A stretch of DNA of 64,000 nt from Dromaius novaehollandiae (Eukaryota > Chordata > Aves > Casuariiformes > Dromaiidae): NCBI RefSeq assembly GCF_036370855.1, contig NC_088132.1:60178841-60242840 (forward strand), read 5' to 3'. The position numbers were made by a program, and so were the translations under genes. Below the pieces are notes generated by a model that was not told where the DNA came from, did not search any database, and saw only the letters and a program-made list of their open reading frames with translations. The number at the start of each line of letters is the position of its first letter. Position 1 is the stretch's first letter. This document shows positions 16,501 through 64,000 of this stretch, piece after piece.

Positions 16501-18175
16501 GAGCATTGCCCTGCATCATTCTGCCTGCGTCAGCAAATACCAGCAATCTGCTTTCTGGCCTCTCTTACAGCAAATACTTTTGTTCAAGTGCATATTACTT
16601 GAACAATTGGATTGAATATAGCATATTCATTGCATACGCATACTTCTCCCCAACCTGTGTGCAAGTTCGACCACAGTATGTTTCAATTCTTATTTCCTTC
16701 AGATTGTCAGATAACAACATTTTACCTCCTCATTATTTCATTTCAGGGGCCTCCTGACTCAGATTTGGTCCCTGCTCAGATCTTCCCAAGTAATCTAAAG
16801 CATTCCTGCTTTTCCAAGTTTTTTTTGCACCACTTAACTCCAGCAAAGTTAGCACTGCTGCCCTTTTCTGTTGGTAGCAGCTTCAGCCATGGGCCCTGCG
16901 ATGCTTCCTGAGCTGGGATGCAGCCCACATCATCGTCAGTCTCCCTGAGCTCGGCTGAGTGATGTGAACACCATGATTCCCACCTCTGTTTAAAATCACA
17001 CTACAGCAGACAGACAGTTCAAGGACAAGAAAATACAAGTTCAGAATGTCTCTATTACTTTACCTCCAAAATACAAACTTTCCCAGACCAAACTGGAAAA
17101 AAAATGTTTGCCTTATGATGACAAAACCCAAGATGCAGTGTTCTCTTTTTAACCTGCCACCATCTGTGTTCTTATAAGGTCGGCACTTATAAAGTGCCAG
17201 CAGTTGTCTGGAACAGCTTTCTGGACCAATCAGCCAATCCTCAGTCACTTTAAATAAGCGTAACTCCTAACATTTGGCTTAAAATGGAGAAAGGCCAGTG
17301 TTGGCTAGAAAGCAGCCCCCACCACCTAATTCCACGCTCTAGATGCTCACTCTCTGTGCACTTCTGTTGGATCAGCCGTCCTCCATCTTCATACTCTAAC
17401 CACCAACAGCAAGGGGAGGAGTGTCCCACACCACAGCCCCAGGGACAGAACCAGCTGGGTATCATCTGTGAGCAGCACCTAATGAGAAGGGCTTTTCCAT
17501 GTGTTGGGGCCACATTTAAGGGATGATTTCACTGCTACAAAATAGAGTCCTTAAATTTGAATTTATGGCAAAGCAAGGCAGGTCAAAAACTTTTGCAAAA
17601 CTAGTGCAGCTGGTTGAAAACTTTTTTTGAAAAAAAAAAAAGGATTTCATTTTGATGTTTGCTTTGCAATAAAAGACATGGAAGATTTTCTGCCAACTTG
17701 TATGATGGATTTCTAAGTGCCCAGAGTTTTCAGGGTCAAAAGCTTCAGGGCTGATTGCTCCAAGGTAAAGACAGCAGGGTTTCCAGGTCCTTTTCTCAGC
17801 TGCTCGGAGCCTGGAAGCCCTGGAGAGCTAACAAGGCTGCCAGACTCCCCGCCGAAGAAGTAGATCTTGAAAGTGCTGGGAGGCCCAAGTCTAGCTAGGG
17901 CTTGGTGCCATCTTTATGAGGGAACAGGACTGCCAGCTCATTGGCAAGCCCTGCTGCTCTGTGATACCCCAAGTTTGGTCAAAGGAGAGATGGAAATAAG
18001 TGCCAAAAATTTTGATAATTCTAATTGGAAAGATGTTTTATAACTTCCCTGTACCTGTGGGAAAAAAAAATAAAAATGAAGTCATGCTTAAAAAAACTAT
18101 AAAAGCAGGACACAATGCAATTCAGCAGCATCCTCATTAGCATACCTGAGTATGCACTGTAGCTTGGGATCATTT
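13524..18175. other. AT-rich unique non-coding DNA
   Basis: No supported gene. A short A11-type run lies near 17630. Frames are below 100 codons and unremarkable. No CR1 or LTR sequence was recognised. Confidence 0.6.
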
Positions 18176-18396
18176 CTCTGGGGAAGGAAGCAGTTTCTTT
18201 TCATCCTCTGAGCTACTGGCCTATAAAATACTCATTACCATAGTTATATGGAAGTTTGTATCCAAGGCTAAAGTTCAGCCAGCAGCGTTTGGCAAAATTG
18301 CAGCACTTTTTTTATACAGCAAGGATGCCAACTCCAACACTTTCAAATGTTTTTATATTGTATCATAGCAATCCTTGCTACCAGAGAACTCTGAGC
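18176..18396 (+). repeat. Copy A of a diverged inverted repeat pair
   Basis: This segment is the reverse complement of 20921-21143, 2.5 kb away. The core is the striking part. A run of 36 bases (from 'aaaatactcattaccatag' to 'gaagtttgta', 18226-18261) is identical between the copies. After two substitutions in five bases comes a second identical 18-base run, 'ggctaaagttcagccagc'. Outside the core, similarity falls to roughly 70-75% with small gaps, but it continues through 'ggatgcca', 'tgtttttatatt' and 'gagaa.tctg'. The left limit is soft; clear homology starts at 18208. Either this is an unrecognised repeat family or a locally duplicated and inverted non-coding element whose core is constrained. 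I do not recognise it as CR1. Confidence 0.75.
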
Positions 18397-20204
18397 ACAG
18401 ATCCAATATATGCATATGTATATATGTATGTATATTGTGTTTACTTATGCATGTTCCTTGCAGACTTCTGGACTGGGAACATGCCACATAATGTCTTCTT
18501 GGCAGTGCACCAACAAGTGGGCCTCGGAGCACAGGGCGGCTCTGAAGGACCTGGAGCCTGCGGAGGCCTCTCCTCTAATATATTTTTTACAGCTTCTGAA
18601 GTCTTTACCAAATCTCTTTCTAATGTCACTCAGCACTTCTAGAACCTTTAATTACCAGGGGGATATTGCTGAATGAACTCACGCATCAAAGCTCTTCTCC
18701 TTGCCACAGCCACCACCTGGGAGATCTGCAGGGTTTGCATTTCGCTAGCATGCCTCCAGCCAGCCATGCTCCTTTGGAGAGTGCTGGGTGCTAGTGCTGC
18801 GTCCTGAGGGAAAGGGGGGCCTCTTTTGGCCTTCAGAAGTCCTAGTTTTATAAAAGCTAGATTTGTTGGTAATTCTTAAGTGGATTCATATCCCAAGTTA
18901 AAATTAGGTTGATGGAGAAAAGAGGCCTTAATGAGACCATCAGAACAAGCCACGAGAACGTCGGACTTACAGATATATAGCTATTTTGTCTCTTCAGCTG
19001 AAATAGCCTTTCTGCTTTTCTGGCCCTTACTGAATCCTGCAGTATTTTCCATTTCATTTCAAATTCCCTTGCAGCAATCAATCAGGCCTATAACTTCTGG
19101 TCCTGCCATCTTCTGCCACAGGACTGCATGATCTACCCCAAAATCTAAATCGTGCAAGGAGAGGAAGATGATAGTCATTCTCTCTAGAATCAGACCACTC
19201 ATTTTCATGCTCAGACCTTAATTTATTAGATTTGCACACACACATGGTCGCATTCAATCTTGCTAACAGAGTTCTACTGAAGGCAATGTCACTGAACCAC
19301 TTGCTCAGGGCTGGAAGTTGGCATTTAGACCATTAGCCTGTGAAACATTTCACAGTACTAAATGACTGTGTAACCCAGTGATACAATAAATAACATTTTA
19401 TTCTACAGACAATCAGAGCCCCAAACACCTCCCCATTTGCTCTTTTAATATTGCTGTGCCACTACAAATTTCAGCAGAGTTATTCCTGAGTTATGTCAGT
19501 AAAACTGAGATACGACAAAATAGCTGTGCTCCCATCAGTGGGCTTTGGGTTATATATCCTTTCTCTTGCCCTGAAATCTCATCAACTTCTCTTGAACTGC
19601 CCCTATGGTTCAATACACAGAAAATGTCCCTCTCAGTGTGATATCTATTTTTCTTAAAGTAGATCCATAGAATGGCCTTGAGTCGGACTTCAGACAATGC
19701 CAAGGTGTCTCAGTGCATTGCAACCTGGAGAAACAGGCCCAGGGTATTCAATAACTAGCAGATGGCCATATTCGTTAGTTTTAACATACCTTTGCTCTTT
19801 GGGATCACACTTTCTGTTCATGCCTCTGAACAGATCGATACATTCAGTGAAATGATAGCTTTTACAAACACGGATAGAAATTTTAAGCCTCTTGCTAGCT
19901 GGCAAAATTATTTGCCAGGTGGGGCAGGAGGAGTTTGGCACAAAACAAACCCATCCAGTCTGATATAACTATTTCATTTTGGGTATATCTTAATGCCACC
20001 TTTCTCCTTTTTTTTGCCTTGCTGCACTGCCTTGAAACACTTGTATGGTTATATAACCATGTTTTCTGCCAGTGCGTTTCTAATTATCTCTGCAGCTTAG
20101 ATCAAAGAGTGCTATCTGCCCTTGGTTCTTCTGCGATACTGCAGTGCAGGGGAAATAACGCCAAACCCAAACTAAGAGCATCCTGCCCCCTTGTTAACTC
20201 GGCA
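18397..20204. other. Spacer between the inverted copies
   Basis: Unique DNA with a small TATATG-type tract at about 18403-18437. No gene or coding capacity was recognised, and no transposase or integrase-like frame explains the flanking inverted copies. Confidence 0.6.
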
Positions 20205-20335
20205 GCAGGAGGGCCGCAGGGGAGGCGGGAGCCGCAGCCGGGGAGCCCGTCCCTCTGCCCTCCGACGCCTCGGGAGAGCGGCCCTGCGGCCCACAGGTCA
20301 CGCGCCTTGGGGCCAGCGCACCTGCGCTCACCAGA
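20205..20335. promoter_or_regulatory. CpG-rich patch
   Basis: About 14 CpGs in roughly 125 bp by eye, including 'gaggcgggagccgcagccgg' and 'cacgcgcc'. The patch contains Sp1-like GC boxes such as 'gaggcggga'. It lies between the two inverted copies, about 0.6 kb from copy B. Function is inference; there is no defined transcript start. Confidence 0.35.
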
Positions 20336-20920
20336 GCAGGCAACACAATATCGTACAGGAATAACAAACCGAGGAAATCAAATGGCCCTTTAGGGAATGC
20401 CCCTCCAAATGCTAGAAATACGTATCAGATATTTCATCTCGGAGTAAATTAAAAAATATCCATCTTTCAAAACTCAGCATTTTGAAGGCCCAGGGAGGCC
20501 CCTGTTCTCTCAGGACCCAGCACTAACCCGGACACTGCTCCCTCCAGAGGAACATGCCTTGCTGGAGAGACCCTACAGGTTCCTGCAGACCGCACAGGTG
20601 CTGCCTGTGGCAGGGAAGAAAGATTTGGTGTGTGAATTCGCTTGGTGACTTCCCTTGGTAATTAAAGCTCCTAGAGGGCAAAGTGACTGCAGAGAGACGA
20701 CAGTAAAAACGTTGGAAGCAGCAGGTAGACAAGAACCCAAACTGCCAGAAAACCATCTCCAGCAGATGCTGGGGTAGGACCCCCCTACCACAGCCCTTGC
20801 TGCTGACTCCAGCTGCCCTCTGCCAACAGCCCGCTCTGCGGTCTGCTCCGATTCACTCTGCCAGAGCTCCTGAGAGGATACAAACTCCCAAGGAAATACA
20901 AGAAAAAGTGAAGGGATTTG

Positions 20921-21143
20921 GCAGAATTCTCTAATTGTAAAGACTGCTAGGATATAATATAAAAACACTGGAATAAACATGGATGGAATTGGCATCCCTG
21001 TTTAGAGATATGTGCCAGCAGTTTTAAGACGTGGCTGGCTGAACTTTAGCCCTGGTTACAAACTTCCATATAACTATGGTAATGAGTATTTTTCAGGCCA
21101 ATAACAATAGCTCATGGGAGAAGGGAGTTTTTTCCCACTCAGG
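20921..21143 (-). repeat. Copy B of a diverged inverted repeat pair
   Basis: Reverse complement partner of 18176-18396. In plus orientation the perfectly shared 36-base core runs from 'tacaaacttccatataac' to 'ggtaatgagtatttt' (21057-21092), flanked by 'gctggctgaactttagcc'. The inner side is also homologous ('cagtttttatat..' type blocks appear as 'aatataaaaacactgg' and 'ttggcatccctg'). The right limit is soft beyond 21116. Compared with copy A it has small insertions near 21100-21108. Sharp conservation of the core against the decayed flanks is the notable feature. Confidence 0.75.
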
Positions 21144-21468
21144 TTATCTTGATCTCCGGTGCAGCATTGGGTCTGTTTTTGGAGGAATGTTGCAATGTGT
21201 TAGCTTTCTAACCTCAAATTCTGCATACGCATCGCTGCACAAGGTTTGCTTGCACATGCTTTTTTACAGCTTGCATGCTTAATTACTTAATGGTTCATGG
21301 TTGTCATTAAATACTGCTCCTCTTTGTTTGGGAGGCTCCAAGAGTAAATGGAAGTGATTCAGAATAGCTCAATTTCTCTGCCTCATGACAAACAGAGAGG
21401 TTCAAATATGTAAGTGCTCCTCCATGCCCTTACTGCCTGCCTATGGTCTTCTGCAGAGTCCAGGCTCC

Positions 21469-21520
21469 CCCAGATCCACAGGCACAGCAGTTATTTATAA
21501 CTGTGCCCTGTGGATCTGGG
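21469..21520. repeat. Strong 19-bp foldback (hairpin)
   Basis: The left arm 'cccagatccacaggcacag' (21469-21487) pairs completely with the right arm (21501-21520), leaving one bulged C and a 13-base loop. Weaker pairing may continue outward ('tccagg' against 'cctggga'). The outer sequence 'cccagatcc' matches the ends of the palindromic MITE-like repeats of sauropsids, so a MITE origin is likely. If transcribed, this length of stem is in the size range of a microRNA precursor. No known microRNA sequence was recognised in it. Confidence 0.7.
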
Positions 21521-22444
21521 TAGACACTTGGATCCTGGGACCATCTCAATTTGCAATATGAGAATCATTTAAATGTTTCTTGAATCTGGGAGCTGCAGTG
21601 GCACCCCCGGAGCCTGGTTCCCCACGGAGCATAGCGTGGGGCACAGGAGATCACTTCCCCCCCTTTCTGCCACCTGGTTACATATTCTCATGGCCAGAAA
21701 CTGGCCTGCGTAAGCATTCACCTGTGAGTGAGGACACAGCGCTGAGCTAGCTCCTGCGTCACTTGCATCCAACCTGAGCTCAGCCTCTCCCTAGCCAAGG
21801 CTGGGTCTTGCCGTTTCCCTCCCAGGACTCTTGGAAGTTTCCACGCTGTTCTCTGCAGGCTTGAGAAAGGAGCAGTCTTGCAAACTCTCACAGTGATTAG
21901 ATGAACATTTCACAAAGAGGGCAGAGTTAAGGTTGTTGTGAAAGTAGTGTAATAGAAGGCAAGTTTGAAATTTCCTGGTACTGGGCGGTTTAAGTTAATT
22001 TTGCTTTAAGCCTTCGAGTACTGATTGCACTTTCTGGAAGGTATCAGGTACCACTTAGCCTTGTTATGTTATAGCAATTCTTATTTTATTTTGTTTTGAG
22101 GATGTGCCAACAGTACTACTTTTCCTATGTAACCCTGGTTTGTTCCCATCAAACCAGGCACGATAACCCAGTGCTGCCTGTATAAACTGTTGCAAGGAGA
22201 GAACAGGGAAAATGGCACTGCAGTCCTGTGGAGTGAGCCTCCCAAAACCTGCACACGTCTGCACACCTCCCTTGCTCACACCTCTCGGTGGCATCAGACA
22301 ACGGCAAGAGTGGGAGAGGATCTGTGTGTTCAAAGAGCAACGCTCAGTCCCGTAAGCTGCTTTGGGCAAGTTTCCTTTGGGGAAAGAGGGAGGGAGACAA
22401 ACCAGGGACAAACCCAGAGACGAGCTTGCTCCAGGCTGGCAGCC
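21521..22444. other. Unique non-coding DNA
   Basis: No supported gene. Overlapping short frames on the minus strand near 22064-22411 have no recognisable product. Confidence 0.55.
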
Positions 22445-22562
22445 GTACAGCCCCGTCAGCGCAGCGCTGCGCCCGCGGATGCCACGGGCACGGGCAGGCC
22501 CCGCGCGGGTTCACTGCTGGGGCGGCGTCCCTCCGCAAGGAGTCTCGGAGGAAATACGAGAT
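22445..22562. promoter_or_regulatory. CpG-rich patch
   Basis: About 18 CpGs in roughly 115 bp by eye, including 'gtcagcgcagcgctgcgccc' and 'ccccgcgcgggttc'. The latter contains the self-complementary 'cccgcgcggg'. It is one of the densest CpG clusters in the window. Open frames on both strands across it are a composition effect. Promoter or enhancer activity is inference. Confidence 0.35.
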
Positions 22563-63710: not shown

Positions 63711-63778
63711 GAAAAAAGCAAGCCACAGAAGACAATAAAGAAATGAAAAAAGCAAGCCACAGAAGACAATAAAGAAAT
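63711..63778 (+). repeat. Perfect 34-bp tandem duplication
   Basis: The 34-base unit beginning 'gaaaaaagcaagccacagaa' occurs twice in direct tandem (63711-63744 and 63745-63778) without a single difference. The next bases start a third unit ('gaaa') before diverging. Perfect identity implies a recent duplication by slippage, or possibly an assembly artefact. Confidence 0.97.
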
Positions 63779-64000
63779 GAAATACAGAGCTCTCAGTGCT
63801 GATCAAAAGGGGTCTCACTAAAAGAATATAAGATCTGGTTGTTACAAATATTTACAAAAATACAATCAGGGATTGCAGCAGAGATACTAAAATACTCATT
63901 GTTTTAAAAAGAGATCACACATGGATCTCATCAAGCTGACACCCCTAGGAAGAACAGGTCATCTGTACAGTTAAGGAAGAGTGTGAGGGCACGGAGAAAT
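63779..64000. other. Unique non-coding DNA at the window edge
   Basis: AT-rich sequence with no gene or repeat recognised. Any feature extending beyond the edge cannot be judged. Confidence 0.6.

Follow-up and report, generated by a model that had tools for sequence, protein, structure and literature searches.

An inverted pair of two-module noncoding blocks between PIK3R1-like and MAST4-like exons of Dromaius novaehollandiae

What keeps a short core nearly unchanged in two inverted copies when the DNA around it has diverged? The question arises at a locus of Dromaius novaehollandiae that we analysed within a window of 64 kb (C35:60178841-60242840, from an assembly of 1.47 Gb in 271 contigs; positions without a contig are those of the window). 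A sequence-only reading had described the segments 18208-18396 and 20921-21116 as reverse complements with a nearly invariant core. They are reverse complements: aligning 18208-18396 with 21110-20921, which covers block A (see below) and a few flanking bases, yields 149 identical columns among 182 ungapped ones. The core is likewise as described, with an identical run of 36 bases (18225-18260 and 21057-21092) and one of 18 bases (18266-18283 and 21034-21051), separated by five bases that hold two substitutions.

Anatomy of the inverted pair

The window contains a single match to itself at E ≤ 0.001, namely 18214-18874 against 21103-20447 in inverted orientation (694 columns, E = 8e-54). When the search is widened to E = 10, the next-best self-match has an E-value of 0.002. 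The pair is real and extends beyond the segments first described. The sequence-only reading had suspected weaker similarity outward on both sides; this is borne out on the inner side, where a collinear second block (block B) follows, and fails on the outer side, where flanks tested separately score 13.5 against a shuffle mean of 14.2. One long local alignment continues to 18102 and 21207, at about 57% identity.

Each piece of the arms was scored separately, with 300 dinucleotide shuffles for comparison, which gives the following features.

18214..18393, plus strand: block A of arm 1, the outer module (score 99, shuffle maximum 19)
18225..18283, plus strand: core of block A in arm 1 (36 and 18 identical bases with 2 substitutions between them)
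18394..18614, plus strand: between-block stretch of arm 1 (221 bp, resemblance lost)
18615..18874, plus strand: block B of arm 1, the inner module (score 90.5, shuffle maximum 19.5)
18875..20446, no strand: spacer between the arms (1,572 bp, halves mutually unrelated)
20447..20697, minus strand: block B of arm 2, the inner module, aligned to block B of arm 1
20698..20921, minus strand: between-block stretch of arm 2 (224 bp, resemblance lost, near-equal length)
20922..21103, minus strand: block A of arm 2, the outer module, aligned to block A of arm 1
21034..21092, minus strand: core of block A in arm 2, the counterpart of the arm 1 core

Block A (about 180 bp, 82% identical) contains the core that was first noticed. 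Block B (about 250 bp, 73%) has 180 of 247 columns identical, including an identical 12-mer, CTTTAATTACCA, at 18646-18657. Between the blocks, the comparison of 18397-18600 with 20700-20920 reaches a score of 13 (shuffle mean 10.9, maximum 21, z = 1.2), and these stretches share no identical run of at least 8 bases. Since A and B exceed their shuffles and the stretch between them is at chance level, each arm consists of A, 221 or 224 bp, and B. The overall layout is A-B, spacer, B'-A', with the arms facing each other.

The two halves of the spacer resemble each other at chance level (score 13.5, shuffle mean 14.0). The spacer also holds a patch of 131 bases at 20200-20330 with 79% GC and a CpG observed/expected ratio of 0.74 (window mean 0.26). 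The patch resembles a small CpG island and could be the promoter of an unannotated transcript.

The arms are noncoding. In 6 of 7 gap runs in block A and all 7 in block B the length is not a multiple of three, which argues against coding sequence, and coding exons in the arms were rejected on these gap lengths. A Pfam scan of 10 of the 57 reading frames of at least 110 aa, three of them around the pair, gave no match above the cut-off; four frames had weak matches (E 0.06 to 0.9). Neither the arm frames (18244-18642 on the plus strand, 20573-21001 on the minus strand) nor the spacer's longest open frame, which was among the 10 scanned, matched Pfam above the cut-off.

Copy number and genomic setting

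A query of 225 bases around block A of arm 1 matches both arms on C35, and the pair recurs on a second contig, C33. With 776 bases of arm 2 as query, six matches were obtained at E ≤ 10 in the 1.47 Gb, all of them to this pair on C35 and C33. A 34-base core sequence, allowing at most 3 mismatches, occurs in four places in the assembly, all exact and all belonging to the pair on these two contigs, and the reversed 34 bases used as control gave no match under the same conditions. Individual matches may be missed by such a search, yet any repeat family of usual size would be expected to appear. Being restricted to the pair and its homologous copy, the core is no dispersed repeat; the arm 2 and core searches speak against a transposable element with many copies, the dispersed family that the sequence-only reading had considered. 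The pair is apparently unique in the genome. As an exact match, the core is also absent from viral contigs and from contigs of prokaryote genomes and was not found in literature text, both weak tests.

Over 30 kb, C33 (72 Mb) and C35 (86 Mb) show 42 mismatches (99.8% identity). Among the homeodomain and forkhead matches listed, four are common to both contigs, displaced by 13.70 to 13.88 Mb; each contig also has one forkhead match that lacks a partner at this distance (C35 8.75 Mb, C33 11.49 Mb). No comparable doubling of other large contigs is seen among the homeodomain and forkhead matches listed; the small contigs C21 and C168 have one forkhead match in common. From the near-identity, the shared offset matches and a doubling not seen for other large contigs in the listed matches, we infer that C33 and C35 are the Z and W chromosomes of a palaeognath bird whose pseudoautosomal region is large. 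The available portion of a report on palaeognath sex chromosomes describes the retention of large pseudoautosomal regions (PMC6735826).

The pair lies at 60.1971-60.1999 Mb of C35, within an interval of about 407 kb bounded by PIK3R1-like and MAST4-like exons. For the neighbours on this contig, the family was taken from curated exon matches. Single gene names are our presumptive assignment from the human gene order, and OTP and ISL1 were presumptively named also by eye from the protein.

C35 53.98-54.02 Mb: EDIL3-like
C35 55.29 Mb: SSBP2-like
C35 55.60 Mb: MSH3-like
C35 56.00 Mb: CARTPT
C35 56.77 Mb: FOXD1-like
C35 58.46 Mb: OTP
C35 59.61 Mb: THBS4-like
C35 59.975-59.977 Mb: PIK3R1-like exons (about 220 kb from the pair, which lies on their 5' side)
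C35 60.384-60.402 Mb: MAST4-like exons (about 184 kb from the pair)
C35 66.67 Mb: ISL1

Relative to the human order, the CARTPT-FOXD1-OTP-THBS4 block is inverted between MSH3 and PIK3R1 (C35:55.6-60.4 Mb). Two local repeats were seen as well. An exact 34-base tandem repeat (2.1 copies, 100% identical) lies at 63711-63782 of the window, and about 20.0-20.3 kb to the left of the window start there is a self-complementary stretch of about 250 bases (68% over 256 columns, E = 1e-21) that is possibly an old hairpin-type element.

The search for genes near the pair covered 234 kb, with about 170 kb of the interval of about 407 kb lying outside this stretch. Inspection by eye of the 70 frames with the highest codon scores in the 234 kb made no coding exon evident, at a resolution that short exons would escape. 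The human PIK3R1-MAST4 interval contains CD180. A part of transportin-1 had no match in the 234 kb, and a zinc-finger motif scan of the same stretch gave two matches that were taken as chance and no gene.

Two further PIK3R-MAST neighbour pairs occur in the assembly, at C8:31547945-31630524 and C25:2249342-2278514, which we take to be ohnologues. The distance between the matched PIK3R and MAST exons is about 55 kb on C8 and about 23 kb on C25, compared to about 407 kb at the locus of the pair. Local scores of the four blocks (A1, A2, B1, B2; the digit denotes the arm) were computed for the 234 kb around the pair (pair masked), the 23 kb separating PIK3R and MAST on C25, and, on C8, 50 kb of the corresponding interval plus 10 kb past it, the C8 stretches leaving out about 5 kb of the interval and most of the PIK3R 5' side. 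Against 4 to 12 letter shuffles each, 5 of the 16 comparisons exceed the highest shuffle, all for block B: B1 on C25 (18.5 against 17.5), B1 (24 against 23.5) and B2 (26 against 20.5) in the 234 kb, and B1 (21 against 18.5) and B2 (22.5 against 19.5) beside the C8 PIK3R. With more shuffles, the B2 score was exceeded in 0 of 25 (234 kb) and 0 of 100 (beside the C8 PIK3R), the B1 score in 0 of 25 and 4 of 100, respectively. A profile built from the alignment of the two copies detected no third one at E < 0.3 in 317 kb from the three loci; the pair apart, no match fell below E = 0.38 for B or E = 2.2 for A, and the best other match in the surrounding 234 kb had an E-value of 0.38. The pairwise scores are no evidence of a further copy and leave room for a very decayed copy of block B.

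Constraint, age and competing readings

We consider it probable that a noncoding cis-regulatory element with two modules was duplicated locally, and in inverted orientation, long ago, and that both copies are constrained. To assess the contrast between core and flanks, the differences in block A (145 of 175 columns identical) were reshuffled over the block in 20,000 trials. Of these, 90 matched the best 59-column window and 285 the 36-base run; the contrast is beyond chance and identity along block A is not uniform. The proposal of an old local duplication with a constrained core, made on first reading, stands as far as one genome shows and is extended by block B.

The age of the duplication was approached via the stretch between the blocks. 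A stretch of 218 bp was evolved neutrally in 300 trials per divergence and compared with the observed score of 13 (pieces of 204 and 221 bp). A score of 13 or less occurred in none of the 300 trials at up to 0.5 substitutions per site between the copies, in 2.3% at 0.6, in 17% at 0.7, and in 72% at 1.0. The divergence of block A is far below these levels. At an assumed bird rate of 1 to 2 substitutions per billion years per site, with an assumed indel model and a neutral stretch, 0.7 substitutions per site would correspond to roughly 175 to 350 million years, and the duplication would be older than crown birds.

The mechanism that we propose is the following. A two-module element A-B would have been duplicated locally, and inverted, in the PIK3R1-MAST4 intergenic interval. 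The two copies would most likely be related and partly redundant distal enhancers that are used in either orientation, and the target would be a gene of the interval, with PIK3R1 as first candidate. Purifying selection on transcription-factor sites would keep A, most of all its 59-base core, and to a lesser degree B, and the DNA between and around the two modules would have drifted to saturation. Both copies retain a strong and a weaker block, and the DNA within and around the arms has drifted, which points to purifying selection on two related modules; as judged from a single genome with two copies, selection is more probably behind the retained blocks than another cause. A word containing TAAT or its complement is kept in both arms, TCATTACCA in A and TTTAATTACCA in B, and we presumptively read both as homeodomain-like sites. 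Enhancer function is plausible but putative, as are redundancy and target gene.

Some points count against this explanation. The differences in block B are evenly spread (14,306 of 20,000 permutations for the best window, 16,229 of 20,000 for the longest run). The homologous contigs differ at 3 sites in block B (18778, 20650 and 20684, in 511 bp), where about 0.7 differences are expected from the 42 mismatches in 30 kb overall, which is unlike the prediction of strong constraint; block A has no differences. Finally, conserved noncoding clusters usually adjoin developmental transcription factor genes, and to our knowledge neither PIK3R1 nor MAST4 is a classic gene of this kind.

The strongest rival is gene conversion between the arms, in which short tracts keep A and B alike without selection. 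Inverted copies less than 3 kb apart are, in general, suitable partners, and short tracts would produce patchy similarity of the kind seen here. Every tract would, however, have to miss the chance-level stretches of 221 and 224 bp and hit both of their neighbours, and the identity of block A peaks at the core instead of forming one uniform tract. On balance we regard conversion as unlikely.

A bolder form of the constrained duplication, to which we give little credence, takes the mirror arrangement itself as the functional unit. In a palindromic A-B/B'-A' locus pre-dating crown birds, selection would have acted in common on both arms, on how they are oriented and on their near-equal internal spacing, and the arms would have to act together, as a paired enhancer, on the PIK3R1-MAST4 interval. 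A palindromic architecture of this kind was not found for conserved noncoding elements in the literature searched.

The pair might also be the relic of a mobile element, with the arms being long terminal inverted repeats (TIRs) of an old DNA transposon or two insertions of one old repeat, of which this locus alone would still be recognisable, possibly recruited later. Inverted arms around a spacer are the general shape of a long-TIR element, and conserved noncoding elements are known to arise from recruited repeats, according to the available part of one report (PMC3234267). The arms are inverted, and their outer ends fade with no sharp boundary. What makes the whole reading quite improbable is that the 1.47 Gb held no other copy of arm 2 at E ≤ 10 or of the core at up to 3 mismatches, that the profile found no third copy in the surrounding 234 kb, and that the longest open frame of the spacer lacks a Pfam match.

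Very unlikely, in our estimate, is that the arms pair as an imperfect stem within one long noncoding RNA that is edited or processed; pairing within a transcript had also been raised by the sequence-only reading. Any transcript across both arms could pair along the 36-base perfect stretch, and the complementary duplicated elements of HOTAIR and HOXD offer a precedent, as far as the accessible portion of the publication goes (PMC7139118). Differences that preserve G-U pairing are not in excess (7 versus 12 on the two strands for A, 19 versus 17 for B), and the loop would measure 1.57 kb. The core alone folds unremarkably (z = -2.3, -1.1, 0.0 and -0.1 for both strands of each copy), on which ground a core hairpin was rejected. 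A scan of the 64 kb window with Rfam at gathering scores gave no match, and a known structured RNA was rejected likewise. A long stem in a transcript, as originally envisaged, thus finds no support in wobble pairs or core folding.

The mirrored layout would fit a pair of oppositely oriented CTCF (architectural) anchors, which we hold to be the least credible reading and rejected: a 14-base CTCF consensus has no match with fewer than 2 mismatches in 17000-22500, and by eye there are no matches at mirrored positions of the two arms.

Relation to known duplicated elements

Two related modules acting on one gene, as in shadow enhancers or local enhancer duplicates, are a natural reading of the constrained pair. 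Shadow enhancers usually have their output in common, not their sequence. In the present pair, by contrast, the sequence is common and mirrored, and regulatory function is putative. The literature searched, mostly excluding subscription papers, gave no report of the pair or its locus, be it on duplicated or inverted conserved elements or on enhancers and gene deserts around PIK3R1, CD180 and MAST4.

A second point of comparison are the duplicated conserved noncoding elements (dCNEs) of McEwen et al. (2006), as described in PMC1896008. In the available part of that report they comprise 124 families of noncoding sequences with more than one genomic copy, associated with nearby paralogous developmental genes and dated to the duplications at the origin of vertebrates; a number of them acted as enhancers in reporter assays. 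The pair is likewise noncoding and multi-copy (two copies each on C35 and C33). As far as dCNEs are described there, it differs from them in occupying one locus, inverted and about 2.6 kb apart, where dCNEs lie near different paralogous genes. The profile search placed no copy in the C25 interval or the covered C8 stretches. With noncoding, multi-copy sequence present and the association with paralogous genes lacking, the pair may work like dCNEs without being one.

The nearest published inverted duplicated core that we encountered is the 32-nucleotide CNE of HOTAIR and HOXD, on the evidence of the accessible text (PMC7139118). Common to both are a duplicated core of about 30 bases, limited similarity of the flanks and inverted complementarity. 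In that system, each of two Hox clusters holds a copy and it is the transcripts that are complementary; the pair occupies one locus, where nothing points to selected pairing.

Most conserved noncoding elements are single copy, and the duplicated ones described in the available part of the dCNE report lie near paralogous genes (PMC1896008). A local inverted duplicate of two modules is an internal control: what is kept in both copies marks needed sequence, and what has lost its resemblance marks dispensable sequence. Should both copies turn out to be present throughout amniotes, deleting one or both of them would directly test what makes conserved noncoding elements so conserved, and whether redundancy or joint action maintains the two copies.
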